64,000 nt of DNA, taken from Bryoerythrophyllum caledonicum (Eukaryota; Streptophyta; Bryopsida; Pottiales; Pottiaceae). This document shows positions 9,638 to 62,930 of this stretch, one piece after another. The notes beneath the pieces are model-generated. The model was not told the DNA's origin, did no database searches, and worked only from the letters and a program-made list of their open reading frames with translations. Location of the stretch: assembly GCA_963971425.1 (NCBI GenBank), contig OZ020523.1, forward strand, positions 13,574,867-13,638,866, in the 5' to 3' direction. The translations under genes were made by a program, and so were the position numbers. Every line of letters starts with the position of its first letter. Position 1 is the stretch's first letter.

Positions 9638-9912
9638 ATCAGCTCGAGTCGAGCTGAATGTGACCCAACAATTCCTATGCCATAAAACATTTAGAATAGT
9701 AAATATCAAAGGGCAAATCATCAAGCCCAAAATTCACTTCTCTCCAAGAAGAAAGCCATACACATTCAGCTTGACTCGAGCTGAATGTGCCCAAGCAATT
9801 TCTATGCGATAAACCATTTAGCATAGCAAATAATAAAATATCAAAACTCTGAAATGTATTAATCTCCACAAGAAATGGGTGTACACTTTCAGCTCGATTC
9901 GAGCTAAAATCA
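9638..9912. repeat. Element 1 palindromes, cluster downstream of gene A (3 copies)
   Basis: Copies near 9640, 9761 and 9882 of the palindrome with arm CATTCAGCTCG, a 3-base centre and the mirrored arm. A weaker copy is near 9529. They lie between the left end and the stop of gene A. Confidence 0.85.
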
Positions 9913-9984
9913 CGCCAACAAATTTTGATCTTATGCACACATTCTTGGATACTAGTATAAGAGTAACATCTTTGTACTAAAAAA

Positions 9985-12699
9985 TCATTGCGAAGAAGAT
10001 GGCTCGGTATCCCTGATCAAACTATCTTGGATGATTTGAACTTGATTTCTAGGCATCTTCACAACAGGAAATTCACTCCTACTTCTAGACTTCCATGCAG
10101 TCAACAGAGATCCGGTGTCCTCCCATTGCGGAAGTTGCTCGTCATCAATTGTCCATTGTAGACCATTGGAAGAGGCCCATCCATCATAGCATCTTCGGAC
10201 ATTTGCATCGCGCGAAGTGTGACGGAAGTACTGTATTTTGATAGAATTAGGCCTTTCCAGATCCGAATTAGGGTTCGAGAGAGCTTGTGCAATCCAAACA
10301 GGACGTTCATCTCCATCACACGGTCTTAATGCAACAAAATAGCCTGAGTAAACGTCTCGATTAATCCGAAAAGAAGGGGCTGGCCTATCTCGACTCTGCC
10401 CAACAAAGTCGTCATCTTCATCATGATCCTCACGAACAGTGCCCACACTAGTGAATCGGTCCTCGATTGTCTGACCAATATGACTAGAAGGCCAAAAACC
10501 ATCCTGTAGAGAGGTGGGCAAGTCCATTGGTTGACTAAGTGACTCTCTAACTACCTGCCAATAGTAGCTCAAAGGCTCATATCGCCTTCGATATTCACCT
10601 GTATGATCCTCACGTGCTTGATGCTCCCAATATGAAATGAATCCAGAAAGACCTTTAATCACTTCAGGAAGATTATGCATTGCTTGTGGCTGCAATGAAG
10701 GTGGTTCTCCACGTGGCCATAAAAACCTCCCATTTGAATCCTCCTTCCACAATTTGATCCCACCCCCTTCTCTTGGAAGCCAATCATCTTGATGACAAAG
10801 AATCTTGTATTTCATCATGGGACATCCGTTGGAGTCAACAAAGAATTTGAATTGGTGAGCCTTTGTGTGGCCTTGTAATGCTTCGTCTCCACCTGCAATA
10901 CCTTCACTAATAAAGGACTTGAAGTCCGGGACTTCTTCAATCAAGTGGGGGATTGTTGGCACACTTTCGTTCTCCATAAATGATCTCATGAGCAAAGGGA
11001 TCGTGGGGAAACTCTCCTTCTTCAAAGCCATACTCCATCGACCGAATAATGCATCAATGTCATCATGTGTGTGGCCAACAAGCATGAAATTAACATAAAC
11101 CTCTCGGAAGATACCCTTTGCAACAAGAAAAGACCAAAAGCAAAACACATATCTATTTTTGTTGTCACTCACCGCATTGTCCATTTGCACATGCAAAATA
11201 GGCGGCAAAGGTTTTGCTGTAGCTAGAGACTCAGGTGCGGGGCGGAGGAATGGGACACAAATATCTGAAGCTCCTTGCAAAACAGCTCGAAACAATGCAG
11301 TTCTCCCCAAACCCTGAAATAATTGTCGAGACGATGTCTTCGAAGGTTGTTCTAAATCTCCCAACAATCTAGCAAAAGATCCCACTGTATAGTTGACATC
11401 ATGTGGGTAAATGTCCAAGCCATAATGAGCATATCGAACATCACCATGACCATGTGCAAGCATTCCAGTAACAGAGATGGGCAACTTCATCAGACCATCC
11501 AAATGTTTTGTCTTGTGAGAGAGGACAGGAGATGCAGTCTTTGAGTGATCCATCTTGTCGTGCATAATCGAAACACATTCATCCGGCAAGTCTTGAGAGT
11601 AGTAACGGTTGGAATAATACAACTCTCGATGAGCCCATGCTGAATCCAAATGGAGATTCAACCTCTGCTGCCACAATAGCGCAGCTTCTGTTCCAGGCTG
11701 CTGCAATCTCCGATGGGAATGGTACTTATCACACGTTGAACAACGAGCAAAGTTATCCCGAGTTCGTTTTGCATTGTAATCGGAAAAATGGACCCGCCTA
11801 ATCTTACTCAGCCCTGAAGTGGAAATTTGGGAAAGCCCGCAATTAACTAAATGGGCATCAATTGCAGGAATTTGATCTTTCCACTTGAAATTTGCGGGAA
11901 GAACTTTGGCCACAGATGTCTCACCCAAAGGCAAGATGCAGGACTTGTGGGGCATGTGGTCAGCATTCCTATTAAGAATGACACGTAATGTTGCGGTAGC
12001 GACTACTATGTGATTTCTAGGTTTCCGTTTCCCAGAATTACCATGGGGTTGCGCGACTACACCAGCCGCTGCATCCTTGGCATATTCATAGAACGAGGTT
12101 TCACTGACGCCCATGATGTACTGCCAAGCAGCTATGCACACATCAACGCCCTCAATGGTCACCACATTTCTACCGTTAGTGGCCACATGAAACTGTCCGT
12201 GAACATCTAGCTTCATATGCCTTCTAAATTGAACGGAGGTTCCAAAATACATCCTCATCCGCAATACCTTAATCTTCAATCGTGGAAAGCGTTGAACACA
12301 ACTCCTAGAGCAACAGAGGTTTCCAGCAACAGAGTTGATAGATTCGTTAGAGAGGAGAATTGATGATTTTGTTGAAACCATGGTTGAAGGGATCCTAGAT
12401 GAACTTTCATAAGAGTGAGTCCTCTCTCCAAGAGACCGGGTTCTCATTGCCATTACAGAATTGTAAGTATCACGCTGCAGGTGATGCAAGAGACTGACAC
12501 TATTATAGAAAACTTGACCAATAGGCCAAATCTTAACACAATAACGCCATTCGTCCGGTGCTTCATCTTCAATTAATGTCCTAGAGACCTGAATGGCAAC
12601 GTGCGTATCACCTAATGGAGCATCAGTCCTAGAAATAGCCGTGGTGTGAAGGTTACGAAGTATTCCAGTGGCAATTGTAACACCGGACAGGTTTTTCAT
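9985..12699 (-). CDS. Element 1 gene A: DUF7869-like protein, candidate transposase
   Basis: Uninterrupted 904-codon frame without introns. Family features as I recall them for DUF7869 proteins: Cys-rich N-terminal part (CCSRSC near 129-134), FARCSTC (residues 317-323), then HDKMDHSK (380-387), VQMDN..SDNKNRY (505-517) and VGHTHDDIDALF (541-552). The spaced acidic residues D381/D384, D507 and D546-D549 resemble an RNase H-fold DDE/D nuclease, which is an inference from spacing and context. A further in-frame stretch runs upstream to an ATG at 12842 and aligns with the N-terminus of element 2 gene A, but a TAG at 12718-12720 separates it, where element 2 has Trp. The true start may therefore be 12842. 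The stop lies 658 bp inside the left end; in element 2 the figure is 654 bp. Transcribed away from genes B-D. Confidence 0.85.
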   Translation of the reverse strand: MKNLSGVTIATGILRNLHTTAISRTDAPLGDTHVAIQVSRTLIEDEAPDEWRYCVKIWPIGQVFYNSVSLLHHLQRDTYNSVMAMRTRSLGERTHSYESSSRIPSTMVSTKSSILLSNESINSVAGNLCCSRSCVQRFPRLKIKVLRMRMYFGTSVQFRRHMKLDVHGQFHVATNGRNVVTIEGVDVCIAAWQYIMGVSETSFYEYAKDAAAGVVAQPHGNSGKRKPRNHIVVATATLRVILNRNADHMPHKSCILPLGETSVAKVLPANFKWKDQIPAIDAHLVNCGLSQISTSGLSKIRRVHFSDYNAKRTRDNFARCSTCDKYHSHRRLQQPGTEAALLWQQRLNLHLDSAWAHRELYYSNRYYSQDLPDECVSIMHDKMDHSKTASPVLSHKTKHLDGLMKLPISVTGMLAHGHGDVRYAHYGLDIYPHDVNYTVGSFARLLGDLEQPSKTSSRQLFQGLGRTALFRAVLQGASDICVPFLRPAPESLATAKPLPPILHVQMDNAVSDNKNRYVFCFWSFLVAKGIFREVYVNFMLVGHTHDDIDALFGRWSMALKKESFPTIPLLMRSFMENESVPTIPHLIEEVPDFKSFISEGIAGGDEALQGHTKAHQFKFFVDSNGCPMMKYKILCHQDDWLPREGGGIKLWKEDSNGRFLWPRGEPPSLQPQAMHNLPEVIKGLSGFISYWEHQAREDHTGEYRRRYEPLSYYWQVVRESLSQPMDLPTSLQDGFWPSSHIGQTIEDRFTSVGTVREDHDEDDDFVGQSRDRPAPSFRINRDVYSGYFVALRPCDGDERPVWIAQALSNPNSDLERPNSIKIQYFRHTSRDANVRRCYDGWASSNGLQWTIDDEQLPQWEDTGSLLTAWKSRSRSEFPVVKMPRNQVQIIQDSLIRDTEPSSSQ

Positions 12700-12974
12700 T
12701 TCGACTATCTTACCAACCTAAGAATGCCTTGGGAGAACTTCGAATACCATCAAATGAGCATCTACTGGATTGTGGAAAGACGAGTTGTCACTTGACAAAT
12801 CAAAATCATCGTCGATTGAGGCACCGGTTGAAGTGTCCATCTCGGCACTGCAAAGTTAAGGCGAAAGTGTAAATAATTGTCGTAGTATAATAGTACTCCA
12901 AGGTTCATCCCACATCAATCAAAGTAAACAAAAAAAAGCATAATTGTTCATCTCCACGATTAGGTGAAAACAAA

Positions 12975-13141
12975 GCACATTTAGCTCGAGTCGAGCTGAA
13001 TGTGCACTGCACATTTAGCTCGGGTCAAGTTGAATATGCACTGCACATTTAGCTCGGGTCGAGCTGAATATGCAGTGCACATTTAGCTCGGGTCGAGCTG
13101 AATATGCAATGCACATTCAGCTCGACTCGAGCTGAATGTGC
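12975..13141. repeat. Element 1 palindrome array, five units of exactly 34 bp
   Basis: Units start at 12975, 13009, 13043, 13077 and 13111. Each holds one palindrome (GCACATTTAGCTCG or GCACATTCAGCTCG, 3-base centre, mirrored arm) with only about 3 bases between copies. It lies 130-300 bp upstream of the longest start of gene A, in its promoter or 5' leader. Confidence 0.95.
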
Positions 13142-13151
13142 ACTGCTTCAA

Positions 13152-13567
13152 GCTAGAGTACTAAATCAAAACCTGAAGCACTCATACCAACAAAAACTAC
13201 GCATTTTGACAGTTGCAAGAACATATATGTCATACTGACGTACAAATAATAAAATGAAGCCCTAAACCTGTTCTACGGAGGCGATTGTGTTGACGCCGAA
13301 GTATCACCTCCTTCCTACAACTTTTTCATTAGGCCAAAATCTATGCATGTCTTTTAAAGTTGACCTAGAATAATGTATCCACTTCTTGCTAGAGTACTGA
13401 ATCAAAACCTGAAGCACTCATATGAAGAAAAACTACGCCTTTTGACAGTTGCAAGAACATATATGTCATACTGACATACAAATAATAAAATGAATCCCTA
13501 AATCAGTACTAAGAAGGCGATTATGTTGACGCCGAAGTATCACCTCCTTCCTACAACTTTTTCATTA
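13152..13567 (+). repeat. Direct duplication, two 180-bp copies
   Basis: Copy 1 at 13152-13331 and copy 2 at 13388-13567, both running from GCTAGAGTACT to CAACTTTTTCATTA. Two short linkers recur elsewhere: TTAGGCCAAAATCTATGC at 13329 and again near 18449, and GTTGACCTAGAATAATG at 13358 and again near 13776. This points to local duplication and insertion at the edge of the spacer. Confidence 0.85.
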
Positions 13568-13905
13568 CATTGAAAATGATAGTATCAAATGTGCAAATCA
13601 AATGCCAAGTTAATCACTATAAAGTTTAGACAGAAGTCACTTACAAATAGTCCGATTGCGTGCACCAAAACGTCTTGAATGAAGAAGGAAGAGAAAACCC
13701 TACTCTTTGTCACGGCCGCAGCAACCATTCACGACCACACACCTCTGCATCTCTAGAAATTCCAAACACAACTAAGTTGACCTAGAATAATGTATCCACT
13801 TCTTGCACAGAAATTTGACTTCGAATGCCATAGGTCTTTCAAATGTCAAGGCATACTTCGAGACAATATAGATTCACGAAGGCTTACCATATTAGAAAGG
13901 TGCAA

Positions 13906-13908
<3 letters not shown>

Positions 13909-13954
<46 letters not shown>
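13909..13954 (+). repeat. (GA)n microsatellite
   Basis: About 23 GA dinucleotides in a row. Element 2 carries a (CT)n tract in its own spacer at 53816-53886. Confidence 0.95.
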
Positions 13955-13958
<4 letters not shown>

Positions 13959-14322
13959 AGGTTGGGGTGTACTGACCACGTCGAACAAGTTGCCGTTAAG
14001 AAAAGAGCGGGAATGACATCACGTTTAGTGGGGAGGAGCTATTCTAAATAAAGCATCTTTCAAAATTGACCAAAAAATTAACAAGCACATAAGTTTCTCC
14101 TCATATCTCGATGTATTGGAAGTTTCTATTTACATGATCAATTTAAGGTTATCGATTGGGGTTATGGGTATCAATTTAAATTTGCAAGAATCAATTTAAA
14201 TTTAAGGTATAGAATTATGTATCAATTTAAGGTTATCAATTTGGGTTATGGGTATTTGATTACGGTCATTTATTTCCATATTAAGGATATTGATTATGAC
14301 TAGATTATAAAAGTAAAGATTT

Positions 14323-14580
14323 AGGTTTAGGGTTCAAATTACATTTTGACATTTAGGGTTTAGGGTTTAAGGTTTAGGATTGCAAGTCCATGGTATGAAG
14401 TGTAAATTATAGGGTTTAGGGTTTAAGGTTTAGGATTGCAAGTCCATGGAATGAAGTGTAAGTTATAGAGTTTAGGATTTCGGACTAGACAATTCTAGAA
14501 TTAGATTTATGGATTTGGATTTAGGGTTTAGGGTTTTAGAGTTTAGTGTTTGGGGTTTAGGATTAGGGTTTAGATTAGCA
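14323..14580 (+). repeat. Degenerate interstitial telomere-like tract
   Basis: Repeated GGTTTAGGGTTTAGGGTTT-like blocks, matching the plant telomere unit TTTAGGG imperfectly, with two near-identical 60-bp sub-blocks (14350 and 14405). Confidence 0.7.
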
Positions 14581-15530
14581 TTGAGATTACCACTAAATCA
14601 AAATGTCCTTTCTATAAGACTGTTTATCATATCAAAATTGAATTGTGCCTTGGTATTGATTTAAGAAAATTCATTACATATCACCTAAAGATAAGATTTA
14701 ACCCCTAAACGTCCCTGATGTTGAAAAACGACATTCCGGATGAGCTCGGGGAAGTTCAAATGGCTGCCATTTTTTCATCCGAAGTCCGATTCATTCGTTT
14801 GTTTTTGGAAGTTACTGTAGACCGGGTGTAGTTTACTATGGAGTTATTTCCTTTACCCCAAGCAATACTGTGATTTTTGTAGGGAGGTTTTAGATGGAGG
14901 AGGTTTTTGTTTTGAAGCAAGTTTTGCAATTTTTGGTGAAAATTTTGGCTGCCATTTTGAGTTGGGGCAGTAGGGATTAGTGCAAAGATGAGGAAAGAAA
15001 TTATGCTGCCCTTGGTGGTTCACTTCAAGAAAAGTGTGCTTTTAGAAAGATAAGTAATTAGAGCTACTAATTACTATTACAGGGTGGTTGGACAACCTCC
15101 AAAACGGGCTCCTTCATCAAATAGGGCAGATCTCAAGACAAGGAGGGGGAAGGACAAAGTGGCATTAAAAATTCAAATGTGCACACAAACTACCTTCCTG
15201 TGCATTCAAAAAACCAAGTCATACAATACATTTCAACATTATTGAGCCACCATTTCAACATCTCAGCAATCAAATTGCAAGATTCAAATCACAACCAACA
15301 CGATTCCACCACCATCACGTAATAAATGCACATGGATTTTAAAATTCAAAATTCAAAACTCATGTACATGCTACATCAAATTCTAGAGGATTCCATTTAC
15401 AACTTGGGCTCAAATCAATTTGCCTACCAACATTTTACAAATGAAAAACATCCAACAATTGAAATTTGAATCAGTTCTTCTAAACCGGGTTGCATATTGA
15501 ATTCCATACTATGCCCCATCCGCACTAATT
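14581..15530. other. Spacer without recognised genes
   Basis: AT-rich sequence inside element 1. No coding signal, palindrome copy or paired element ends seen. Confidence 0.5.
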
Positions 15531-15738
15531 GGGACCCCAACAACAATAATTAGGGTCCCCAACAACAGCTAAAGGGGCCCCAATAACAGTAGTTGGGGCC
15601 CCGAGCAATAGCTCCTGGGGCCCCCAGCAATAGTCGCTGGGGTCCCCAGCAATAGCTACTGGGGCCTCAACAACAGTCGTTGGGGCCCACAGCAATAGCT
15701 GTTGGGGTCTCAACAACAGCTGCTAGGGCTCCTACAAC
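15531..15738 (+). repeat. GC-rich 22-bp minisatellite, about 10 copies
   Basis: Diverged units of the form GGGGCCCCAACAACAGTAGTT. Each junction is itself nearly palindromic (GTTGGGGCCCCAAC). The minus-strand open frame across it is a repeat artefact. Confidence 0.85.
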
Positions 15739-17436
15739 AATGTCTTCGTCTTTTTGTCTTTGTCTTTTTGTCTTTGAGTTTTTGTCTTTTACTTTCAACA
15801 CAAAATTGAACATACTTTTATATTTTAATAATTTTAGAAAAAAAATTATATTTTTATAAATTCAAACTGATACTTACATTGTAAATTTATTATTACAGCA
15901 AAAAAAAGTGAAAGCTTGTAGAAGTTAGCTATAAATACTATTTACAAAAAAAAATATTGTTATTGTATAGAGTAAACACATATAATTATCAAAATATATC
16001 GAGATATTTATTGCCTTATATTCTGAAGATGGCTGAGCTTGTGCAATCGAGTGCAAAAAAACCTAGAATAGGACAAGTTATTGCCCTAAATTTTATAGAA
16101 GATTAGCAAATCCTCGAGTTGGTATACGATTCAAAGAGTAGAGGTTGTTAAACCGTAGGGCACACCAACAAAGCATTTGACCGGTAATATGCCATACCTT
16201 GTAGAAAAACCCTAACGTGGCTGTATTTCAAAAATATATTTACCAATCCTTCATCTAGGGTAGACATGACCATAACAAAACAACAGGTTTACGTCCATTA
16301 TTTCCACAAACTATGCCATGATTGTGCGCAAAAATCTTTACGTTGCTCTATATGTGAACCGACACTAGATCCTGATTTTGCAATGCATACAAGATTTATT
16401 TTTTATTCTTCAATAATTATCAACATGTTCTTTGTATCAATATTGTTCTCCATTGTAATATCTTGTCTTAGCAAGGGACCCTATGTGGGTATCATTTAGG
16501 TTTTGGCTTCATTAAGTATATAGTGAAAATTGTTATATATAGAGATAAATTATGATATGATATAAATTTATAAATATTGGTAGAGTCAATTGATAGAAAT
16601 TAAATACTTGGAGGTTCATCAGGCTAATATCATTCATTCAAAGATATTCAGTGTTAAGTTTATTTTCAAAATCTTAAGCGAATAACTATCAATTCTATGT
16701 GTAACATTTAATCCATAGAATTTATACTTAGTGGTCAAGCTTCTATTATATTTTTTAAATATTTTAATGTATTTTCAAAATTATATTTTTAGATATTCAA
16801 TGATTAATCTTTTAAAAATATTCAACTAACAAAATGGCAATTATTAATGACTCTTTGGATTTAAAAGATGACCTTTAAAAAGAAGTGTACAACAAGTTTA
16901 ATTTTATTTATATTTTCAATTATCAATACTACAATCAAATGTGTTGAAATAAAATAAAAATCATGATATAGATTATTCAAATAGTGGAAATGATTTGTTG
17001 AATTTGACCAAAACAATGTAATGTGGTTGCTTTTGTACATAATTCATATAAAATGGATGAAAGTATAAACTTTTTGTCCAGGTGATTATCCATGTAATGT
17101 TAAGGTGCTACCCCTATAATGCATAGGTGATACCCATGTAATACTTAGGTGAAATCCACTATGTCCAAATCATTGGGACAAAGGAAAATAATTCTTTTGA
17201 CTTAGAGGTGTTGAAGTGACCACTAGATATGGTATTGATAAATTTCAATGATTATAAATTCTTGATCAATTGCACATTTTTTCCTTTTAGAAATCTATAG
17301 TTGAATTTCAAAGAAATTTGGAGTCCTATTGTCCAACCGTAGGAATTTGATATATCCTAGGAATAAACAATGATCATTTGAGGTAGCTTTGATATGATTG
17401 AAGAACCTTCAATTTCAAAATCAATGACTTATTGCA
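15739..17436. other. AT-rich spacer without recognised genes
   Basis: Low-GC DNA inside element 1. A 77-codon plus-strand frame at 16266-16499 has a Cys-His-rich start but no domain I can defend. Otherwise nothing recognised. Confidence 0.5.
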
Positions 17437-18262
17437 TCATACTACTAAAATCATAATCCTTGCAGTGAACCACGCAGCGATCAATCGCGCAGTCAGCCGT
17501 GCAGTGAACTATAGGAGCGATATAGTCAACCGCGCAGTTAATTACGCAGCCAACCGCGTAGTGAATCATGTTACTTTTTTTAAAATATAGTTTGTAATAT
17601 ATAAAAATACATTAAAATAATTGGACTCATGCGTTGCAAAGCATTAGCTTGAGTTTTTGGGTGTGACAAATTTGCATTTGTGTGTTGCAATTTGTGCTCT
17701 TGATTACAAATTTGACGTTTAAAATATTTTTTTAGTTAAGCACTAAAAGATTGAATTGTAAATTATGAGTTGTAAAGTTGGAGTAAAAAAGTTGTGAAGT
17801 TGGAGTAAAAAAGTTGTGAAGTTGGAGTTGTGATCTTGGAGGTTGGCATACAAAGTTGGAGTTCCAAAATTGCATATTCGAGTTGTGGAGATTGAAATTA
17901 CAAATTGAGTTTGTGGATGTGTGAATTTGAGATTGTAATTAAAAGTTGAGTTTGTGGGTGTGTGAAATTTGCATTTGTGTGTTGCAATTTGTGCTTATCC
18001 AAAATAAATTTGAAACTCTTGATTACAAATTTGACGTTCATAACATTTTTGAAATTCCATGTTAAAATGCAAAAAATCTAAAACCTAATTAATTTTTTTC
18101 TATTCTATTCTATTACATTATTAAAATTCATGCATAGGTTTCAAAGACATATTTACATTTTATGTAGATTGTTGTTACCTTTTTTTTTAATATATTTTGT
18201 GATATAAAAACTACATTAAAATGGTTGAACTAATGCGTTGCAAAGCAAGCGCCAACTGCTAG
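17437..18262 (+). mobile_element. Short non-autonomous Helitron-like element
   Basis: Starts TCATACTACTAAAATC after an A at 17436 and ends CTAG at 18262 before a T, the A|T target typical of Helitrons. Just before the end is the hairpin GCGTTGC-aaa-GCAAGCGC. A second copy of the 3'-type sequence (GCGTTGCAAAGC) lies at about 17632, so two ends may be joined. No helicase coding. The structural match is good, but the family was not confirmed. Confidence 0.6.
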
Positions 18263-19909
18263 TATGTATTTAAAAATACAATCTCATTATTGAAGTTTCG
18301 TTTCACAATAGATTAGGATTCTCAATCCATGAAAGATATTTGATACTTTTCAAAATTAGATTTTTAATTTGAAGCCCCCTCATCCATTCACTCGATTCCA
18401 ATCTACTTAGATATTTATTTAAACTCACTATTTTATCCATGATATTGCTATTAGGCCAAAATCTATGCATGTCTTTTAAATAATATTAATTGTTTTGAAC
18501 ATATAAAAACTTTGAAATTATATTTTTGGTTTTTATATATGTGCTATCACAAAAAGAAGAAGATTAAATATTGTAACTCAATTGTTTAATCATAAATCTT
18601 CCAAAAACAATAAATTAAAAAATATATATTGTATAATCCCAGTGTCTTTGATTTGCGTTCACTACAGGAAGTTTTTGAGTATGATATTTACAAGCCTATA
18701 GAGTAGGTGCAAAATGTATATAACACAAATTGTATATAATAATGGCAATTTCTTTTCATATTGTAAGATTGTCATTCATCATGTAAAGTTGCAATGGGCC
18801 CATTCAATAACAACATGTCCAAAATAGTCTTCACCATCACTTCAAAGCCATAATCTTCCAAATTCTACTATGAAGGAATTAATAACATTTGTATTAACCC
18901 CTAAAGGACCAGAGTCTCCTTCGGGGGGATTTCTGATTTTGGGTAGGTTCCTAAAATTCGAAAAAATTCTTTTTTCTCTAAATTTTTTATTCTAGATTGC
19001 CTCTGATAAGAGCTTCGTAGACGTATTTTTATTTTATTTTTTGGATTTGTGGTTTGAAAGTTAGTACCACTTAAAGCCAAAAGTTGGGACACCGGGCACC
19101 TCAAATTTTTTTGACAAAAGTTTCTAAGGCTAAAATCCAAATTAGGCTAATATCCAAAAGAAAACGTGAAATGGCAATCATTGAACCTCCACTCCTAAAT
19201 TTGGCTAAAATCCAAATTAGGCTAATATCCAAATTTTAGCTGCTTTGGTCTTCCCAAGATGAGATTTGTGTAAAACCCATATATTACAGTTTTAACTCAG
19301 TTGCATTTTGGAAGATAATGGATAAGGTAACCCCTTGTATCCAATGAGAACTCATAATCAACACCAATAAAATTAGGGTATATCCAACTGACTTCCATCC
19401 CATTACCACCTATTTAGCTCCAAGTGAAGGTTAGCGACTCAAAAGAATCCCGTACTTTTTGCCGGCACTCTTGGGGGTACCTATTAGCGGTTGCCGGCTA
19501 AAAAAGGCAACACACTTTGAAAATTCACAAAGAATTTACATTTCATCGAAAAAGTATGAAATCACTTGGATTCAAATTGTAATTATATTGGCTATCACCG
19601 AAAATTAAATTGGGTAGAATTTTTTCCTCCCTCCATATATGCACATTGCTTAACCCTATAAGGCCGATGAGCTTTTTTAGCCTCGAAGAATCTACGAGTG
19701 TTCTAAATCATGCAGAATAACATCAACACCACAAGGTACATAACATCAGAACCCCCACTCATGGAAATCATTCTTGCTGGTCTATGCTTGCACCGATATT
19801 CGCGGAGATTGTCTCAATAGATGCCCATCTTCCTCCACCTCTTTTTCATAGTTCAAGTCTTTAGCAGTTGCTATTGAGATTATGGAAAGAGGACCCGAAA
19901 TGGGCGATA
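18263..19909. other. Spacer; holds a sequence block shared with element 2
   Basis: No gene seen. The block at about 18894-19115 (CCTAAAGGACCAGAGTCTCC ... GGATTTGTGGTTTGAAAG ... GTACCACTTAAAG) recurs in diverged form in the spacer of element 2 near 50190-50250 and 51650-51800. It may be an older shared part of the spacer or a common repeat. Confidence 0.55.
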
Positions 19910-20235
19910 ACTTGTCGGTTATGAACGGGTGAGGGAACGATGGGAATCATGAGAACAGAGAAAGGAGCAATGCGAACAGCGAAGCAGGAAAAGTTGCTAT
20001 TAACGGGTGAGGGAACGATGGAAATCATGAGAACAGAGAAGGGAGCGATGCGAACAGCAAAGCAGGAAAAGTTGGTTATGAACGGGTGAGGGAACGATGG
20101 GAATCATGAGAACAGAGAAGGGAGCGATGCGAACAGCAAAGCAGGAAAAGTCGGTTATGAACGGGTGAGGGAACGATGGGAATCAGGAGAACAAAGAAGG
20201 GAGCGATGCGAACAGCGAAGCAGGAAAAGGAAAGG
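19910..20235 (+). repeat. 79-bp tandem repeat, about 4 copies
   Basis: The block AACGGGTGAGGGAACGATGG starts at 19924, 20002, 20081 and 20160, giving steps of 78-79 bp. Lies just upstream of the captured gene pieces. Confidence 0.9.
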
Positions 20236-20331
20236 AACAAATTTGGAAACAGGCGAGGGAACAGTGCGAACGGCGGAGGGCAAGAGGCCGGAGGGAGACG
20301 AAGGGAGTTCCTTTTCATCTTCTTGTGTGCG

Positions 20332-20413: not shown

Positions 20414-20435
20414 ATGCCGCACACCATCACGAGGT

Positions 20436-21629: not shown

Positions 21630-21639
21630 ATTATTTTTA

Positions 21640-48063: not shown

Positions 48064-48076
48064 TTTCCAATTATAA

Positions 48077-51900: not shown

Positions 51901-53815
51901 CAACAACAGAAAACTAAAAAACAACAGAAGACTAACAACAACAGAAGACTTAGTCAAAGAACTTTGTTGATCCACTGAATCAGCCTTTTTTTTTTGGCGT
52001 AAAATAACCAATGGGGGGAAAAAAATTCTTAAAATGAAATATTCCGAAGAAAAATGAAAATTTGAGATTACACATCGCCAGAATTCCATCAATGGTCGTT
52101 GCCATGTTGCCATATTGCCACGAATGAACAACGGAGACTCCATCTTTTCACCAAAAAGGATGTACAAATCTATGTTTATACAGATGAAATCTCTGAAATG
52201 AATATTTCTGGCAAAAATTTAGTTTCGTTTGGATTGAGGAGAAAGCCAGAAGTGCTATAGCTCCTTGGCTTCTACAGCCACTGTGCAGATCCCATTCAAA
52301 CAAAAAAACAAGACTGCACAGAATGCAGAGAAGAAATCTTTCAATCCATGCGGTTAATGTCAATGAAGTTTTGTAAGATCAGTATTTGGTAATGATTTAT
52401 TGAAATCATATAGTAAAATTGGGAAATACAAGTATTTGTTTCCTTCGTTACTCATTGCACTATAATCAACAGTTCAGAAGCGATTTTGGTGTGAAATTGA
52501 CCAGGAACTTTTATAACTGTTTAGTAATATTGAAGTATTTTGAATACTTTAAGTGGTTCTACAAAGGTAGATAAGCCAGGAGATAGTTGACATTAAAACT
52601 TACATGAAGTAAATTAGAGTCATCAAAGTACAAATGCTAAATGCTTAATCAATCACAAACAATGGAGACACTGCAAAATCGTAACAAGTGTGTGTTAAAT
52701 AACAATTTTTGAAGAAACTATATGAAAATTATGTCGAAGTCTTCAAACATAATTCATAATTCTTTAACTTTCCATTCATTTCAACTTTAATACATAGAAT
52801 ATTCATCTCAAAGAGGCTTAAAATAAAAAATAATAATAAAAATGTAAACCTCTTCTACAGTATATAACTCAAACAAACATAACCAAGATTAAAAAGATTA
52901 GACTTAAATAAATATTCATAAGTTTTAAATATGATGTGCATTTGAAATCTATTCACGGATCATGGTGTCTGTACTTCTTTATGTCTTATTATCTTGTGAC
53001 TCAAGTCTTATTGTGTTTCTAAGGATTGCTTATTTAAAACTATAGTAAATCAAATACATGTAGTTTTCTTTAAGAACGACTAATATAAAATTTAATTGGT
53101 TCGGTATGTTTGTATTGTATATTATAGGTTCTAAGAAATTGTTAATTGACAATTGCAACTTTAAATTTGAAAAGGAACTTGTGGACGACTTTGAAAAATC
53201 TAGTGCGATGTCTTTATAATCATAACTGATTACAAACATACAATTAACATCATGAAATTGACACATATCAAAACAAAAAAAGACATATTAATGTAGTTTT
53301 ATCTAGATCCACTCAAAGAGTCCTAATTTGATGAACAATGACTATAAAAAATGTTTACAAAATTTCCATTTAAAAAATATTTGGCTTTAAAATTTACAAT
53401 ACAGTAGTAATGAAAAATTAATATTATTAACGATGTTTTCAAAAATTAAAATTTTTAAAATACGTTTATGTCAAGTAAAATTTTTATGAACTTCCCAAGA
53501 AACTAATTTAGAAAACTTTTTCATCATGCAAGAGTATGCCAAAGTTGGTAGTTTTCAAATCATTCTAAGTACAATCAAATTGACGGATGAAAACGTCCCA
53601 TATTAATTCCAATTCACGAACATTCATTAACCAAAAAGTGAATTGAAGCATTGCGTCATTTCGGTATAGTTTCTAAATTAAACATAATTGGACATTCATT
53701 TACCGCGACGCTTTAAATTTTGGTTTGGTTTGGTCTCGTAAGTAGGTGAGAAAGTTGAAGAGCCGCCAATTCGTTCACTATTTCAAGTGCGAATTAGGGC
53801 GTGACAACTCTCACT

Positions 53816-53835
53816 CGCTCTCTCTCTCACACACA

Positions 53836-53882
<47 letters not shown>

Positions 53883-53886
53883 CCTC
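53816..53886 (+). repeat. (CT)n microsatellite
   Basis: Imperfect CT run with short CA interruptions, followed by GTGTGAGCG-like low-complexity DNA to about 54320. Confidence 0.95.
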
Positions 53887-54777
53887 GCGCGCGCTGTTTT
53901 CCAATTTTCCTCTCTTCTCTCCCTCTCTCTTCGTTGGGCTTCCCTTGCTTGTAAGCGTGTGCGTGAGCGTGTGAGGGTTTTTGCGTGAGCGTGTATGCGT
54001 GAGGTTGTGTCAGCGCGTGAGTGTGTTTATTTAGTTTATTGTGTGAGCGCGAGAGTGTTATAGTTGTGTGAGCGCGTGAGGGTTTTGAGGTTGTGTGAGC
54101 GCTCAGTAGTTGTGAGTGTAAGGTTGTTTGTGCACTGTGTTAGAGTGTGTGTTGATTGCCTGCGAGTGGGTGCGAGTTTATGTGACATCTGTGGGTGTGA
54201 GGTGTGTGGCCGTGTGGTGAGGAGAGGTGTGTGAGTGTCAATCTTTGTGTGTGAGGTGAGGTGTGTGTTTGTGAGCGCGTGTGTGCGTGAAGAGTGTGTG
54301 TGTGAGGGTTTGGTAGTCATTTGCAAAGATTTGTGATTGGTAGTGATTCGCTTTGAATTTCAACTGAACAGGTTTTGGAGGTTTAGACTATCTCAGCTAG
54401 GGTTTGTGTCTCAGTTAGGGTTTCGATTGACATTGTGCGAGGGTTTTCCAAGGCTTTGTTGTGAAAGAAACCCTAATTTATTTCAGCTTTTTCACACATT
54501 GATTGTGCACGTCAACTTCATTTGGATTCAGAGCTTACCTTGGCTGTATTTGCAGACAGCCGAAGTAAGTAAATGCTATCTTTCTCAATTTTGCATTCCG
54601 CAATACAAGCTGCATATGATTTTGTGTTTATAACATTGTATATATGCGTGAGTAGAGAATTGACTGACACCATCGTTTGTAAGTGTATTGTTAATTTGTA
54701 TGTTTGTTTGCTTGTTTGTCTGCATTAACATTGCAATGAACTGTAGATGCTAAAATCGCAGCCATAACTCGAAACCG

Positions 54778-55494
54778 TTTATCCTCGATCCAAGGATAAA
54801 CTTGTTGTCATGGTTAACTGGTAAAACAAAAGACGTCTAAAGAAATACTAATTATCATTGAATGCAATAACCTTATCCTCGACCCGAGAATAAATACAAG
54901 AGAAGAAGATGACAAGAGTAAAGTATTCTCGAGCCGAGGATAAACTAATTGAAATTCAGTGATAAATAGTACCCGAAATCATCCATAATGTTAAAGAGTC
55001 ATGGAAATTTTATGTGATTGGAAAAGACGTCTGATTCAGTACAAATTGATTGAATTTCAACTAATTTATCGTCGACCCGAGAATAAATACATGGAAATAC
55101 CAAGACAAGATGTAACGTATCCTCGAGCCGAGGATAAATTAGTTGAAATTCAACGATAAATTGTACCGAAAATCATGACATCGATAGAAACCAGTCATGA
55201 AGTTGTATGAAATTAATATATGTGCCCGTTAAACGTCGATACCTAGCAACACACACTCTACCAGTCTGATTTAACATATATCCTCGAGTCGAGGATAACT
55301 AGCCTCAATATCACAATACAATCAACAGGAGTCGAATAATGTATCATCGACTCGAGGATAACATAATTCAGAAACCATGAATTTCAAAAGTCTATATTTG
55401 ATGGTTTCCTCGACTCCAGGAAACAAGGACTTATAACCAAATCTCATATCGTCAGAAAGACGAATACTTATCCTCGACACGAGGATAAGTCCCA
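54778..55494. repeat. Element 2 palindromes upstream of gene B (9 copies)
   Basis: Copies near 54778, 54873, 54923, 55066, 55117, 55278, 55340, 55407 and 55468, in what is probably the 5' UTR intron of gene B (acceptor CTGCAG at 55533). Two pairs are about 50 bp apart. The copy at 55407 has both arms altered in a matching way (GTTTCCT/AGGAAAC). Confidence 0.95.
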
Positions 55495-56932
55495 AAATGG
55501 TATCTAATATCCCTGTGGTCATGCATTCTGCAGATGGCCAGTGACCCAATGGACATTGTCGACGAATACGATTATTCAGCGGAGGAGTACTTTATTGAGA
55601 GGTTCAAAAATCCTTTCGATCCATCCCCCTTCATCGACGACGTGGTGGAAAACTATGGCACACCGTGAACGTTTAAGGATGTCGTGCGGTCTTGGTCGTT
55701 TTCTAAACTCGGGAAGTTTGTACAGATTACGATCAAAGTCAGTGACGAAGTCCCATTTGTGCTTCTGAACCGCAAGGAGAGAGTGACCTTTGTCGAGCAG
55801 CAACAGATGGAGTATATTGTGCTCAGACTTCAGGCATTCGATGATGCTGGGGCTGATTTTCCCCACTGCCATTCCATTGTCGTCAAAGTGGGTTTAGATT
55901 ACGGGCAATTCGACTTCTCGGAGTTGCTCGAATGCGTTGTTCGAAACGGGCAAGGATCGCTAAAAGAGGCGTTCGAGAAGTACTTGCCCTGGACAAACGA
56001 TGATGCTGTGAAGGTCAACAGGCGATTAGTTCGAATCCATCAACTCCTTTCGGCATTTGAAACTCGGTCAGTTCCAATCGGAGCCACTGCACGTCGTCGA
56101 CCTCGCGCACTTGGTGCTGAGGCCACCAATCCATCGGGATCATCTGCACCTCAAGCATCCAGCCGTGCTCCGCCAAGAAGACCGTCGACAACGACTGCAA
56201 CGGCTGGAGAGCCATCCTCAAAGAAAAGGAAGTCAACGGCTGGTGGAAGCTCCACCTCGACCATTACGCGGGCTGCGACTCCAAACAAAGCACGAAACGA
56301 TCCGCATGTGGATTTTGAGGCGGTCACCGAGTTGTAGCGATTGTTCTGGGAGGAGTGCAAGGGATGCTTCCCATTTGACAGTTCTACTTATGGGGTACGA
56401 ATCGAGCGGTGCGTAGTTGCAAAAGCCCAGTACGTCATTTGGGGAATGGAGGAGGGCATCGTGTTAAACACCATGGACTTCCTTGTGCAACTTGGAGAAA
56501 TTGGTCAACGCCAGAAAATCTGTGTGTGCCCAGTCGATGAGGACGGTGAGCCTCTTCAGTGGAAGCCTACGACTTGGGACGATATAAAAAAGGACAAGTT
56601 CATGCTGATCAATGGATAGCATAGCGTGGAGGCCTCTAGGCGTCTACAAAACGTCGAGAAGTGCAGTGAAAATTGAAGGAATGTTTTGCAGCGATGGGAT
56701 GCGTATGTAGTTTGGTCGACAGATCCTCCGAAGTTGCAGAGAATATCCAAATTCTACAACGACACGAACTACCTGGACCATGATCAGGCGACATGGGGGA
56801 ATCAGATCTTGAGTTGCAGAAGAATTTGGCTCAACTCAAGACGACCAAGCTACCAGCAAGGAGAGGGCGCAACTCGCGGAAACGCCACAGTTTTCGACCA
56901 AGAGAAGTATTCGGTAAGCTTTCGAATATGAA

Positions 56933-56955
56933 AGTATCCTCGAGTCGAGGATAAC
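56933..56955. repeat. Element 2 palindrome in intron 1 of gene B
   Basis: TATCCTCGAGTCGAGGATA in intron 56914-57056, the same intron that holds two element 1 palindromes in the other copy. Confidence 0.95.
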
Positions 56956-58402
56956 TATCGATACTTAAGAACTTGAATATTCTTTCTCCTGCACGTCGTC
57001 CTCTTTTTTAATGATTATGTTTAGTAATTGACATATGTGGGGTCCCTGATATGCAGTTATTCTGCCAACTTATCGTGAACCGCTTCCAAAACATCGACCC
57101 CACGAAGGAAGGGAAGTAGGTGAACAAGTCCTCAGATATCACGAATGAGATCAAGGTGATCACATTGCCTGATGACATTTTCAAGCTGTGGGAAGATTTT
57201 CTCGAAAAACACACGAAAGGCGAGATAATCAACCCAGACACGATGGTCATGTATAATGAGGCTGAGAATTTTAGAGCCTCTCCCATCCATCGTGAATTTT
57301 TCAAGAGGTTGGGTCACCTCTCCGATAAGGACTTACGGGACGTGTTCACCTATCTGGTTGACAGTGATGGCCCAAACAGGTACCTGAAAGTCACGCTTCG
57401 GCGGACAAGCGTGGTTCACGGGTCCTGCTATCACTACGAGGAGTGGGCAGATTGCCGGAAGAGGAAGCGCATTGTCCTTCAGGAATTCATCGCAATAGAT
57501 CCTTCCTTGAAGTTTTTGATGCCAGACGGGTCAACAAACGGCGAGGTGTGGAAGGCGTGGAAGCATGAACACTGCGTTTCTTCTGCGACGTACAACATGC
57601 TCCTTGTCTGGCCCGACAAGGAGTTCTTCTCGATGAGGCTAACAAATGCTGGAAAGCTCAAGCGAGCATCTCAGCTGCTGGAGAAGTTTCCGAACGTGTT
57701 TCCATTCTTTCGGAAGTTTTTGTACGTGAAGAGCCACATCGACCCCGTTGTTGGACCCGCCAAGCTTCGCGATTTTGATGGGGAGAAAATGGAGTTCTCC
57801 GAATATTTTGACCCGCCCGCGGAGGACAGAGAGTGGTCCCTTGGTCTCCTAGACCTTCGACAGGTCTCCGGCTGGTCTTCCAAGGAGGACTCATCTGAAG
57901 AGCCATACTTCTCGGAGTTTTTGAAGACATTGAAGACACAAAGAAGTAAACCCACCCTGAACTCTCCGGCTGTTTGGGTTTGGATAACCTCTTCGGAGCA
58001 GCGAGCGGTGCAAGCGGAAAAGTATGTGGAGAGGAGGATGTCGAAATATGTGTGCCTTCCGTCGAGGTACATGCCATCCGCATTCGAGCGACTAAACTTG
58101 GGGACTTCAAGGTCGAAGTGCACTGAGGTATACCTGCTGTTCCTCATTCGGGATGACCATCCCAATTCTCCGGCGCTGTTGAAGAAGGTTGATCTGAATT
58201 ACTCTGCCGCGGATACTCCGTACTACACCGAGAGAAACAAATACTTGGAGGCATGCTTCGCAGTTCACGGCTACGAGTTGCGGATGGAGTTCTACCTAGA
58301 GCTCCTAATAGCCTTCAGCAAGCCGAGGAGCAGAGTTTTCGGAGTCTTCTGTGGCTCCAAACTCCTGCTGGCGAGTAAGGTAATTATCCACTTCATTACC
58401 TT

Positions 58403-58527
58403 GTTTATCCTCGGGTCGAGGATAAACCCGGTGATTCACCGATTTACAATATTATGTATTTGGTTGTCCTTTATCTTGCCTCTTCCTATATCCTTTTGTG
58501 TCTATTTATCTTCGTGTCGAGGATAAC
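58403..58527. repeat. Two element 2 palindromes in intron 2 of gene B
   Basis: Copies at about 58405 and 58504 in intron 58380-58603, matching the two element 1 palindromes in the homologous intron. Confidence 0.95.
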
Positions 58528-59723
58528 TCTCATGCTATCCGTTCGATTCCTGACTGTTATAGTTGTCATGTTAAACTCATCGGCTTTGCCTTCTCTTTAT
58601 CAGATGTTCGGAACCTCGTTTTATGGACTGGTGGACAAAGACTATCGCAATTTGTACAAACACAATGCGAAAAAAATTGAAAAGTATGACATAAACGACT
58701 TCCTTCATAAGGATTGTGCTTATGTTAGTCGTCCCCTGCCGCCGGATTCCGATGATCCCGAATCCGCACCAGCACTCAACACTGAAGATCAAAGGCCCTC
58801 CAGGACCGCCACCGCTCGCACAAGCTCTGCACAGAGGCCTACGGAGACTGCAGCTGCAACGGCCTCAACCTTTGGTTTCCGTCAGGATTCAGTCCGCATT
58901 GTCAATGAATCTGAAGAGGATGCCGACCCTCCATTCTCGCGCAGATCTCCTCCTCCGCCGAATCCCCCGGAACCTAACGACAATGATACTCCGGAATTGG
59001 ATACGTATGGGAGTAATATTGGTGTAAACCTCTTGTCCCTAGGACCTGACTCGGCTGGGCCATCTTCTCATCATGGTAATGATGCAGGCAAATTACCGGT
59101 GCCATCATCCTCTGGAGTCGACGTTGAGGCGCTCCCCAATGAGGTCCCTTCCTCTGTTATTCCAACTCTTCAAGGAGACGCCCCTCTTGATTTAGCACCT
59201 TCATCTGAAGTGGTGCCACCACCTGAAGTAGCCACGAAGCGGGATATTCCCATCATTCTGCTTTCGGACAGTGACGACAAAGGACCAAGACCTCCAGTGG
59301 CCGGCCCATCAAAGGTTAAAACTCCTGAAGTTATATGGCCTTTGAAACCGACTGTGCTTGAGGCTTCCGACTTCTTTGTCAACGCTGCTGGAGAAGCCCT
59401 GCCCCTTGAAAAGGTTGTGAAGTACGAACCTGGTGGTGATTTTTATCAGCAGCTGGCGATCAAACGCCTTATGGAGATGAATGACAAGCAGGATATGGTG
59501 GACCGCTTAGAAGAGTCGAAGCGCAGGCAGGCAGAGATGGAGGCAGCTCTTGAGAAGCAGAGGTTGGAGTTTGCCTTGGAAAAGGCGCGGATCGAGGCGA
59601 CTATCAGGGCTGAGCTACAGCTTCAAATGAAGTCAGACCTTGCCCAGATGGCCGTGAGGAGCCCTTTGAATTCGGGGGCAACATCATCTGGTCCTCCGCC
59701 CACTGAGTTGCCTGTGAACACGA

Positions 59724-59940
59724 GTTATCCTCGTGTCGAAGATAACTTAGGTTCAGGGCTCTCTACTCCCCTGCAACCTTCGGCTGGGTTTTCTCAGAGG
59801 GAGCCTTATGTTCCTGTTCGCGAAGCTGCCTCTCTTGATCAGCAGCAGTCTCTTCCTCAAGCAGCACCTGCGTTCGCTCCCTCTGAGGAGCTCGCTCCAA
59901 GAAGAAGCCCTCCTTCAGAGTATCCTCGACCCGAGGGTAC
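59724..59940. repeat. Two element 2 palindromes inside the coding sequence of gene B exon 3
   Basis: GTTATCCTCGTGTCGAAGAT at 59724 and TATCCTCGACCCGAGGGTA at 59921. Both are read in the same frame as YPR(V/P)E in a Pro/Ser-rich region. Confidence 0.9.
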
Positions 59941-60369
59941 GCCGGGTGTCTGCCTTCACCAGATCCCGCTTCCTTTCCCCGCTCCCCTTCAACAGTCTGT
60001 GGAGTGCGACATAGAGGCCCGCGTAATCGACGTTCCTATGGTGGCTATGAATGTCAGTCCGGTGGAGGAGGATCGAGTGGATTACGAGCCGTCACCTGAT
60101 GGACCTCGAAACGGAGCATCTGATTCTGACCAGGTTGGCTAGCTCTTTTTTTCCATTTCTTTCAGGCTACTTTACAAGCTGCAGCCCTGTATTTTTTGAA
60201 TGACTACCCATAGTCTCTAGTAGGTCTCATATGGGTTTGTTGGACTGCAGGCATCGGATCCATATGAGTTTTGATGTACTTTAGGCGGAGTGTACATACT
60301 TGTAAAAGCATTTGTATATAAATTTATGGAATTGTTTAACAATTCAGTTTTCTTCAATTGTTTTCTCAG

Positions 60370-61345
60370 ATGAGAATGGATGATATTGTTCATCGACCTC
60401 TTGCATTGAAGCCTCGGATTGGGAATGATTTACAGAAGTCGCTATGTGGAGGAGAATTGATGCAGTCTGTGACGCTTCCTTTGCATATTGCTCAATGTGC
60501 ATTTCATCAGGTTATTTCCATTGACTTCAGTGTGTGTTCGTCCTGTCCCAGGACTGTTTGCGGAGGAGTTTGTCCGTTGTTCCCAACCGGCGGCCACACA
60601 AGTGGCTTAATATTGTTTTGGATATTAATGGCATCCTGTGCGAGACAGAGCATGCCCCTGGGTTGTCTAGAGGCTCAGGGAGTCAGGCAGCGTATTCTTG
60701 CACGTCCTTGCGTACATAGGTCCAAAAGTTGTATATACTCGCCTTGGAGTTCGTGCGTTTCTGGCGGAGATCCGAAACATGACGAACTCTATTGTCGTCT
60801 GGAGCTCGATGAAGAAGTCCACTGTTGTTGAAATTGCGAAGTATCTTTTTTTGGACATGCCTTCTCCAACTCTGGTTCTTGGTCAGGAGAGCTGTGATAG
60901 AATCGAAACCTCACCCAATAAGTTCTTGATGGATCAGAATAATTTGAACAAGATGATCTTTTTAAAAACTCTGTCATCAACTTTATTTAGGCAACGACTT
61001 GAGTCGATGGTCCTAGATTCGGACAACACCTTTCTCATCGACAACAGCCCGGAGAAGAGCGTTTGTAATCATATGGGAAATGCCATATTCCTTCGTCCGT
61101 GGAGACATGTGGCTTGTGACGACCAGTTCCTTACTCAGGAACTTGTACCTTGGTTGCGACGTCTTGTTTCTAAATGCCTTCTTGGGCAGTTACATGATTA
61201 TGTTAATATCAATCGTATAGGGGTTGAGCCGTTGGCGCATAATAGTCCTTTCATGAAATACATTGTAGATAAGATGGAGCTCTCAAACAAGAACGTTGGC
61301 TATGTCTATGAAATTCCACATGGTTCTTCTTCGTCAGCTTCATAG
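60370..61345 (+). pseudogene. Element 2 gene C: FCP1/NIF-like HAD phosphatase homologue, frame broken
   Basis: First exon from 60370 after a CTCAG acceptor to about 60510. Motif I LNIVLDINGILC lies near 60610, then the frame changes near 60690-60700 and continues as IGPKVVYTRLGVRAF, VVWSSMKKST (motif II) and FLIDNSPEKS (motif III) to the stop at 61345. The second Asp of motif I is again Asn. At least one frameshift compared with element 1. Otherwise the domain is well kept, so the loss looks recent. Confidence 0.75.
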
Positions 61346-61550
61346 TTTCATCGGCTCATTTTTAGTAATATAGTAGGAATTTAGTATCGATATTGTAAAT
61401 ACTCTGTTTCATTTTGAATATATAAATATTTTACAACTTCAACAAGTTTTATTGTAATTTATTGGCTTTGTCTGGTGATTTTTGTTATCTATGTGCTGCA
61501 ATTCATCATTCGGTCGGTTCTAGGATTTATCATTGTTTTCAGTATTAGTG

Positions 61551-61644
61551 TTTATCCTCTGGTCCAGCGTATTGTTTTTATTATGGATTCAAGGTATACT
61601 GTAGTCCTTTGGGCTTTCATATTTATCCTCGGGTCGAGCATGCG
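61551..61644. repeat. Two decayed element 2 palindromes between genes C and D
   Basis: TTTATCCTCTGGTCCAG near 61551 and TTTATCCTCGGGTCGAG near 61621; the right arm is lost in both. Confidence 0.7.
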
Positions 61645-61707
61645 TTGGATTTCTGTGAATGTTGTTATGTTGACTCATTGCTTCTTTGTCTCGTGTGTCT
61701 TTTGCAG

Positions 61708-62529
61708 GTTGTGAAGGCTACCATCATCCCTCCATATAGGAGTGATCGTAGTAAACCGCCCTCCGATTTTGGCTCCTTTTCTGAGTACTCTGGGTCGCTT
61801 CCTGGAGGTGATTCCCAATCCCACTATTCAAAGCCATTTCTTATGTGCAGTGCAACCGATGCTGCCTCTGCTATCATGGACTTTTCTACACAGAAGGTCG
61901 ATGATGGTGTTGTTGATAGCCCTCCTGAGCGGAGGGCTGGAATTCCTTGTGTGGCATCTCCTTCGCCATTCAAGCAAATGTGTGCATCTATAGAGCCTGT
62001 TGGCGATTGCACTCCTAAACGGCAGCTCTATCTTAATGGTGCAATTGATGTAAACGAGGTGAAGGAGTCTGAGCCTATCTCTTCTAACTTGATTATTTCG
62101 CCTTCGTTTATTCGTGTCCAGCCTTCCCCTCCTACCCTTGCTAAGTGGAGGCCGCTTCCTAGTTCAAGATCTGAAGATATGGTTAGAGCTAGTATTCCGC
62201 AATCCCGTTCAACAGGATTGCATACCGAATCTCTCGGTGTTAAGCCTAGATCTTTGAGATCCGCATCTTCACAAATTCGTCGGAAGGCACTATGCTTGAG
62301 TGGAGGTGGTGGTTCTGGGGCTGGTTGTGGTCGGTGCCATCAATCACGTCATTCACCTGTGCGAAAATCCGTGAATTATTCGGAAGTAGATGATTACTAT
62401 AAACCCTATTCTCGAAGGAAGGAAATTATGATTGGGTATGCGAAAGTGAAAGCGCAAGAGGCCTTACTTCTGCAGACACAAGGAGGTGGTTCAACCATTC
62501 CTTCTAGTGAGGGGGGAACTCCTAAGTAG
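61708..62529 (+). CDS. Element 2 gene D: basic Ser/Pro-rich protein
   Basis: An open frame of 273 codons from a TTTGCAG acceptor at 61707 to the stop at 62529, phase 0. Ser/Pro-rich body, then a Gly/Cys cluster (GGGGSGAGCGRC), basic HQSRHSPVRKS, and YSRRKEIMIGYAKVKAQEA. The ending and position match gene D of element 1. The upstream exon or start is not resolved; the first in-frame Met is in FLMCSATD. It may be a separate gene or an alternative 3' exon of gene C. No known domain. Confidence 0.55.
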   Translation, partial: VVKATIIPPYRSDRSKPPSDFGSFSEYSGSLPGGDSQSHYSKPFLMCSATDAASAIMDFSTQKVDDGVVDSPPERRAGIPCVASPSPFKQMCASIEPVGDCTPKRQLYLNGAIDVNEVKESEPISSNLIISPSFIRVQPSPPTLAKWRPLPSSRSEDMVRASIPQSRSTGLHTESLGVKPRSLRSASSQIRRKALCLSGGGGSGAGCGRCHQSRHSPVRKSVNYSEVDDYYKPYSRRKEIMIGYAKVKAQEALLLQTQGGGSTIPSSEGGTPK

Positions 62530-62904
62530 GAACAATTTTATATGCTTTAGGAGTCCTTCCTTGTTTTGTAGTAGACACGATAGTATAGATCCTAGACTAC
62601 TATAAATAGAAATTAACTTTTGATTACCTATGTTGGTAAACGATGTCATGAAAATAAAGTTGTAGTATTAGTATTTCCATTGTGCTCACTCTTTTTCGAC
62701 TCTGGATGGAATTATATTCTCTATGCCGAGATATTAATAGTATGTCTCGTATAATGCAATTTTGAAGCGTCTCAATGATTATGTTGTTTATTGTTTGATT
62801 TGGGATGTTTTGTGTATGGTGCATGATGTATGCCTTCGATTGCAACAACTTTTCACGATATTTGTGTCCGAAGTAATAGGCTTTTAGTCTCAAATCTCAC
62901 GATT
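62530..62904. other. Right subterminal DNA of element 2
   Basis: AT-rich, no gene recognised; leads into the right terminal repeat. Confidence 0.5.
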
Positions 62905-62930
62905 TGTCTCATTTTAATGAATACGGTGTT
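62905..62930 (-). repeat. Right terminal inverted repeat of element 2
   Basis: Inverse of the left end with one mismatch; followed by the duplication CTGG. Confidence 0.92.

Follow-up and report, generated by a model that had tools for sequence, protein, structure and literature searches.

Transposons that label their own copies with a private DNA code, to be read by a protein which they themselves encode, are known in very few cases, of which VANC of Arabidopsis has been worked out most fully. VANDAL elements are Mutator-like, with a Mutator-type transposase and a 9-bp target duplication; the ends of CACTA elements begin with CACTA, and their target duplication is of 2-3 bp. In the available portions of two papers, VANC is described as exerting sequence-specific anti-silencing, with motifs that diverge in the non-coding DNA of Arabidopsis VANDAL elements (PMC5735166, PMC10398659). 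The CACTA (En/Spm) element Tgmt* of soybean, according to the accessible part of its description, is 20.5 kb long and has TNPA-type motifs within 159 and 732 bp of its ends (PMC2613891). Here we analyze a 64,000-nucleotide stretch of Bryoerythrophyllum caledonicum DNA (contig OZ020523.1, hereafter the window), a nest of giant DNA transposons and a retroelement. Three palindrome-bearing elements could be typed in it: two full elements, E1 and E2, each with two genes called A and B, and a remnant, E4.

As far as the available text of the VANC papers goes, this locus resembles VANDAL elements in having element-specific short motifs that are present in many copies, non-coding, partly in tandem and different between related elements. 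In contrast, the VANC motifs given in the part of PMC5735166 at hand have 8-9 bases (YAGTATTAY, AGTTGTCC/AC), and the motifs found here are palindromes of 17-31 bp that are often isolated; the word "palindrome" is absent from PMC5735166. Unlike VANDAL elements, E1 and E2 have DUF7869 alone above cut-off and 4-bp target duplications. A second parallel is offered by Tgmt* and CACTA elements, which, in the same partial source, are large two-function elements with reiterated palindrome-forming motifs and with subfamilies diverging within a species together with a presumed binding protein (PMC2613891). Their motifs adjoin the ends, whereas those of E1 and E2 lie mostly at promoters and introns, and where CACTA ends and a duplication of 3 bp characterise Tgmt* (PMC2613891), the elements seen here have AACAC ends and duplicate 4 bp. 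A TNP2-type transposase was not recognised either: E1 gene A and the tested pieces of E2 gene A match DUF7869 alone above the Pfam cut-off.

Each palindrome family is confined to one element within the window

Three odd-centred palindromes were defined: a 31-bp palindrome in E1 (F1, GCAYATTYAGCTCGNNNCGAGCTRAATRTGC), a 21-bp palindrome in E2 (F2, TTATCCTCGNNNCGAGGATAA) and a 17-bp palindrome in E4 (F4, RTCGGCNGNCNGCCGAY). A sequence-only reading of this DNA had counted about 29 copies in E1, about 24 in E2 and at least six in E4, none of them crossing from one element into another, and the searches bear this out. F1 gave 30 matches at up to 9 mismatches, 30/30 inside E1; the 28 at up to 8 mismatches were kept as sites and two 9-mismatch matches (9521 and 23220) were dropped, ten control shuffles yielding none at up to 8 mismatches and 0.7 at 9. 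F2 gave 26 matches at up to 5 mismatches, and the 22 at up to 3 mismatches all lie in E2 at 46148-61643 (control shuffles: 0 at 0-2 mismatches, 0.1 at 3). The F2 working list of 24 consists of these 22 clear sites and two 5-mismatch matches (55404 and 61552), and leaves off 38976 (5 mismatches, outside E2) and 41126 (4 mismatches, inside E2); the site lists include hand choices. The six F4 matches at up to 2 mismatches fall at 37223-40067, with none in E1 or E2 (20 control shuffles: 0 at up to 1 mismatch, 0.4 at 2, 1.75 at 3), and one 3-mismatch match inside E2 is within chance expectation. Half-sites gave the same picture, with 28/28 for F1 in E1 and 30/31 for F2 in E2, the exception being at 37366. 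Within the window, no clear palindrome of E1, E2 or E4 was found in the wrong element. A further fragment, E3 (1 to ~1150), has only its coding part inside the window and carries no palindrome. A pattern search of IMG/VR returned no stretch for F1 and one for F2.

The same reading had proposed that the palindromes of E1 and E2 have a common inner core, overlapping centres and different outer arms, and this was confirmed. F1 and F2 agree at five positions on each side of the centre (CTCGA-N-TCGAG) and differ outside, and the core of F4 is different. The common core CTCGNNNCGAG has 24 exact matches against 0.32 expected, and CTCGA is found in at least one half-site at the centre in 28/28 F1 and 24/24 F2 sites. 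The sets of 3-base centres overlap, with ACC, TGT and ATC in F2 only. Over 254 common columns, gene A of E1 and E2 is 54.7% identical, compared with 36.2% and 37.8% to the E4 remnant, so that the core is common to the closest pair and the more distant E4 is without it. The suggestion that palindrome types diverge with their elements is thus consistent with the data, which hold three types only and do not amount to proof of co-divergence. The sites might instead be bound by a host protein, and the common core could then be a host site; the element-encoded binder put forward below, gene B, is itself a predicted one. Since neighbouring elements differ in their outer arms, and F4 in its core, differences that binding by one host factor would not call for, we regard a host binder as very unlikely.

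The palindromes lie upstream of both genes and in introns of gene B

In both full elements gene A runs leftward and gene B rightward: A at 9985..12699 (minus strand) and B at 23996..31055 (plus strand) in E1, A at 41467..46045 (minus) and B at 55534..62529 (plus) in E2. The F1 palindromes (no strand is assigned to any palindrome) comprise three at 9633..9913, 3' of gene A and 306 bp from the left end of E1; five at 12975..13141, upstream of gene A; twelve at 23191..23914, upstream of gene B; seven at 25434..30776 in introns of gene B (25434, 25479, 27009, 28501, 28636, 30358 and 30746); and one at 31078..31108, 314 bp from the right end. For F2, seven are found at 46148..46937 upstream of gene A, one isolated copy at 48041..48061 between genes A and B, nine at 54779..55488 upstream of gene B and seven at 56934..61643 within gene B, in introns at 56934, 58405, 58506, 61552 (weak) and 61623 and in an exon at 59725 and 59920. 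The six F4 palindromes of the E4 remnant (37223..40067) start at 37223, 37339, 37643, 37773, 38758 and 40051. Directly upstream of the F1 array that precedes gene A in E1, a 186-bp repeat is present twice (13146-13567, 92% alike).

Taking F1 and F2 together, 33/52 sites are located no more than 1 kb upstream of a gene A or gene B start codon (17/28 for F1, 16/24 for F2, at the same places in E1 and E2), 12/52 in introns of gene B and 2/52 in exons. The exonic sites are 0/28 for F1 and 2/24 for F2, with exons making up ~37% of E1 and ~39% of E2. When sites are taken as independent, upstream enrichment has P 1.5e-11 (E1) and 7.2e-12 (E2), and exon avoidance P 2.9e-6 (E1) and 8.3e-4 (E2). Private sites that are placed alike, at two promoters and in the gene B introns of two diverged elements, suggest a factor, encoded by the element itself, that acts on expression.

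The two arms of the palindromes vary independently

The symmetry of the sites could serve a nucleic acid structure, the palindromes forming hairpins in RNA or in single strands that would act, for example, in transcripts, in splicing or in the making of small RNAs. Several sites do lie in introns, and the palindrome at 13111-13141 folds as RNA at -23.3 kcal/mol (z -6.9; six folded sites range from z -3.2 to -6.9). These energies do not discriminate, because any DNA palindrome folds as RNA, and sites are also found upstream of genes. Variation between copies was more informative. At F1 positions 4/28 the combinations are C-G in 9 copies, C-A in 7, T-A in 6, T-G in 4 and others in two; at positions 8/24 they are C-G in 14, C-A in 7, T-G in 6 and T-A in 1. 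The stem positions therefore show no covariation, and unpaired C-A is as common as under free variation. In a hairpin, changes in one arm should tend to be matched in the other; arms that change independently point instead to two protein half-sites, and we consider a hairpin function improbable.

The regular spacing of F1, which is 52, 52, 52, 52, 52, 75, 52, 52, 75, 52 and 127 bp upstream of E1 gene B and 34 bp upstream of E1 gene A, indicates that these arrays grew by tandem duplication. Such growth would also be expected if the palindromes were small units able to move or duplicate, spreading inside each element and of no use to it. In line with the palindrome alone being the unit, the flanks of intronic F1 sites resemble their best partner at or little above chance (identity 0.35-0.50, compared with 0.40, standard deviation 0.04, at random places); most F2 sites likewise have little flank in common, with five upstream of gene B at 0.53-0.57. 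However, flanking target duplications are unsupported: 3-bp duplications number 2/28 against 0.75 expected for F1 and 1/24 against 0.62 for F2, and 21/28 duplications obtained at a 2-base trim stem from the GC ends of F1. Placement is also non-random and alike in two diverged elements, and selfish spreading of this kind appears unlikely.

Gene A encodes a putative DUF7869 transposase

E1 gene A (904 amino acids) and E2 gene A, which is interrupted from ~43.2 to 44.95 kb, both belong to the DUF7869 family. They pass the curated cut-off of PF25273 (26 bits) with 145.2 bits (E 2.3e-42) and 146.6 bits (E 8.8e-43), respectively, and E2 gene A is also recovered by tblastn with E1 gene A. The gene A remnant of E4 (38106..39960, minus strand) was found by tblastn with E1 gene A at 26-36% identity. 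The stretches HDKM, Q-x-DN-x3-DNKNR and VGHT-x2-DIDA are invariant across the three copies and look like a DDE-type catalytic set, and gene A is likely the transposase. No relatives of E1 gene A were found in IMG/VR, nor of E2 gene A in prokaryote genome contigs or phages. No mention of DUF7869 was found in the literature searched, and no description of an element of this kind, as judged by titles and abstract openings.

Gene B contains a phosphatase-like domain and is the better candidate binder

Gene B has several exons and in-frame stops in both E1, where exon limits were estimated by hand and similarity to E2 gene B was used, and E2. The downstream blocks of E1, beginning at 28.8 kb, possibly belong to a gene of their own. 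A dullard/SCP-like phosphatase domain lies in 28880-29806 of E1 and in 60588-61342 of E2, and PF03031 (NIF/dullard-like) exceeds its curated cut-off of 21.8 bits in both (56.7 bits, E 2.9e-15, in E1; 32 bits, E 1.2e-7, in E2). The NCBIfam model TIGR02251 reached 30 bits against a cut-off of 139. The usual first motif of SCP/dullard phosphatases is DxDx(T/V), whereas gene B reads DLNGI in E1 and DINGI in E2, with the second aspartate replaced in both, and the domain may be altered or inactive. One gene B block has a coiled-coil-like stretch, judged by eye.

Between E1 and E2, gene B is ~28-36% identical and gene A 40-50%. Gene B is less conserved than gene A, as a specificity factor would be, and no other function is evident for it; on both counts it is the likelier of the two to encode a protein that would read the palindromes.

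ParB proteins bind palindromic sites. The stretch INGQHS is invariant in gene B of three copies (24770-25417, 56302-56916 and 774-1142); the two of these that extend far enough have F-Y-x(3)-N/F-x(4)-N after it. This recalls the DGQHR and FxxxN motifs of DGQHR/GmrS proteins of the ParB/Srx fold, as given in the available part of PMC4619093, and is a resemblance of motifs only, no sequence match to a ParB, DGQHR or DUF262 profile being found in Pfam, NCBIfam or PDB. In IMG/VR no relatives of E1 gene B or of the gene B alignment were found.

E1 and E2 are complete transposons within a nest

E1 (9327..31422) is a DNA transposon of 22,096 bp that is inserted into a Ty3/gypsy-like retroelement. Its 28-bp terminal inverted repeats (9327..9354, plus strand; 31395..31422, minus strand) are 96.4% identical, and it is flanked by the 4-bp target duplication CCAC. 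When the E1 flanks are joined, all 69 codons tested are open across the site, in frame with the 567-amino-acid open reading frame of the retroelement on the left. E2 (40813..62930; 22,118 bp) has the same architecture, with 26-bp terminal inverted repeats (96.2% identical) and the target duplication CTGG; the ends of both elements read AACAC[C/T]. E4 retains gene A and is interrupted by E2, and weak candidates for its left end lie near 35.7 and 35.95 kb. E3 (1 to ~1150, plus strand) is a gene B fragment truncated by the beginning of the window and by the insertion of another element, with 67.7% identity to E2 gene B over 266 amino acids.

Other features were noted around these elements. Host-like gene fragments, captured or inserted, are present within E1 at 21781-22718, one proteasome alpha-like (best PDB match 7qve, a chain from spinach, 6.6e-11; next chain 0.1) and one 2-hydroxyacid dehydrogenase/CtBP-like (PF02826, 1.3e-8). 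A 71-bp tandem repeat array occupies 1935-3837, and a Tc1/mariner transposase remnant (HTH_Tnp_Tc3_2 4.4e-14, DDE_3 3.5e-8) is inserted at 36222-37070, with the retroelement on one side and the E4 remnant on the other. Together with the proteasome match, visible introns and TTTAGGG-like runs mark the DNA of the window as eukaryotic and most likely of plant origin. An alternative genetic code was considered and rejected, as the gaps between open reading frames are non-coding plant DNA and no codons are reassigned. No RNA families reached the gathering score in the window and no tRNAs were found there.

Discussion

Combined, these results lead us to propose, with a probability of about 0.5, that the palindromes serve as binding sites for a dimeric protein encoded by the element itself, which would activate the element's own copies or relieve their silencing, in the way of VANC of VANDAL but in an unrelated transposon. 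Such a dimer would bind the palindromes of its own element and coat the promoters and introns of that element's two genes. The coating would keep the element's own copies expressed, the protein being an activator or an anti-silencing factor, and each lineage would have changed the outer arms of its site so that it addresses its own kind only. The binder would more likely be gene B than gene A. The sequence-only reading had taken the palindromes for self-versus-other recognition sites; position, symmetry and independent arms make this the best reading of them, one in which both protein binding and the choice of binder are predictions.

Several observations weigh against this proposal. As many sites are tandem copies, they are not independent, and by clusters the P value for exon avoidance weakens to 0.017 (E1) and 0.11 (E2). 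The E1 sites at 306 and 314 bp from the ends also fit a role in transposition, in which a TNPA-like accessory protein or the transposase would bring the ends together, gene regulation being secondary as in CACTA elements. CACTA subterminal motifs, some of them palindromic, diverge between subfamilies along with their binding proteins in the available part of PMC2613891. The match at 41126..41146, at a distance of 313 bp from the E2 left end, is possibly a genuine F2 site that has decayed: 4 mismatches were reached by 1/200 shuffles of the end kilobase, and 40 whole-window shuffles gave 4 such matches in total. This rarity weakens the case for E2 ends devoid of sites, raising the transposition explanation and lowering our own. 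However, most sites are internal, as the counts upstream of genes and in introns show, and within 600 bp of an end there are 4/28 in E1 and 0/24 in E2, the doubtful 41126 aside. The E2 working-list sites nearest the ends lie at 5335 bp (left) and 1287 bp (right), and no F2 match nearer the right end is better than shuffles. This sparseness argues weakly against a purely transposase-end function, and we hold a primary role in transposition to be doubtful.

Methylation and the proteins supply further points, one of them in favour of the proposal. Transitions in F1 affect 15/112 CpG positions, compared with 12/224 other C/G and 2/336 A/T positions, which suggests that copies of the palindrome were once methylated. 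Yet with palindromes masked, CpG observed/expected is 0.80, 1.07, 0.86 and 0.85 in the upstream zones against 0.65 and 0.58 in the element middles; this is the favourable point, weakly suggesting less past methylation upstream, in a contrast built on 10 to 21 CpGs per zone. On the other side, searches of gene B against Pfam, NCBIfam and PHROGs, at the levels used, recognised no DNA-binding domain, and weak Pfam matches to helix-turn-helix domains, below cut-off, fall in E2 gene A. Structure predictions were unusable for gene A (5-row alignment, mean predicted local distance difference test (pLDDT) score 33) and for the gene B domain (3-row alignment, mean pLDDT 36).

More tentatively, and with less confidence than we place in the binding sites themselves, these elements may represent a new group of giant plant transposons with two genes each, a DUF7869 gene A and a phosphatase-domain gene B, that independently evolved sequence-specific self-recognition and anti-silencing. 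In each lineage a gene B dimer would read its own palindrome, the core serving for binding and the fast-diverging outer arms for identity. If true, this would be a second case unrelated to VANC, with long palindromes, a common core and replaceable arms, and would mean that systems of this sort evolve repeatedly. A tractable diverging protein-site pair would also become available for asking how DNA-binding specificity changes. The nested copies allow changes in core and arms to be set against the divergence of the genes.

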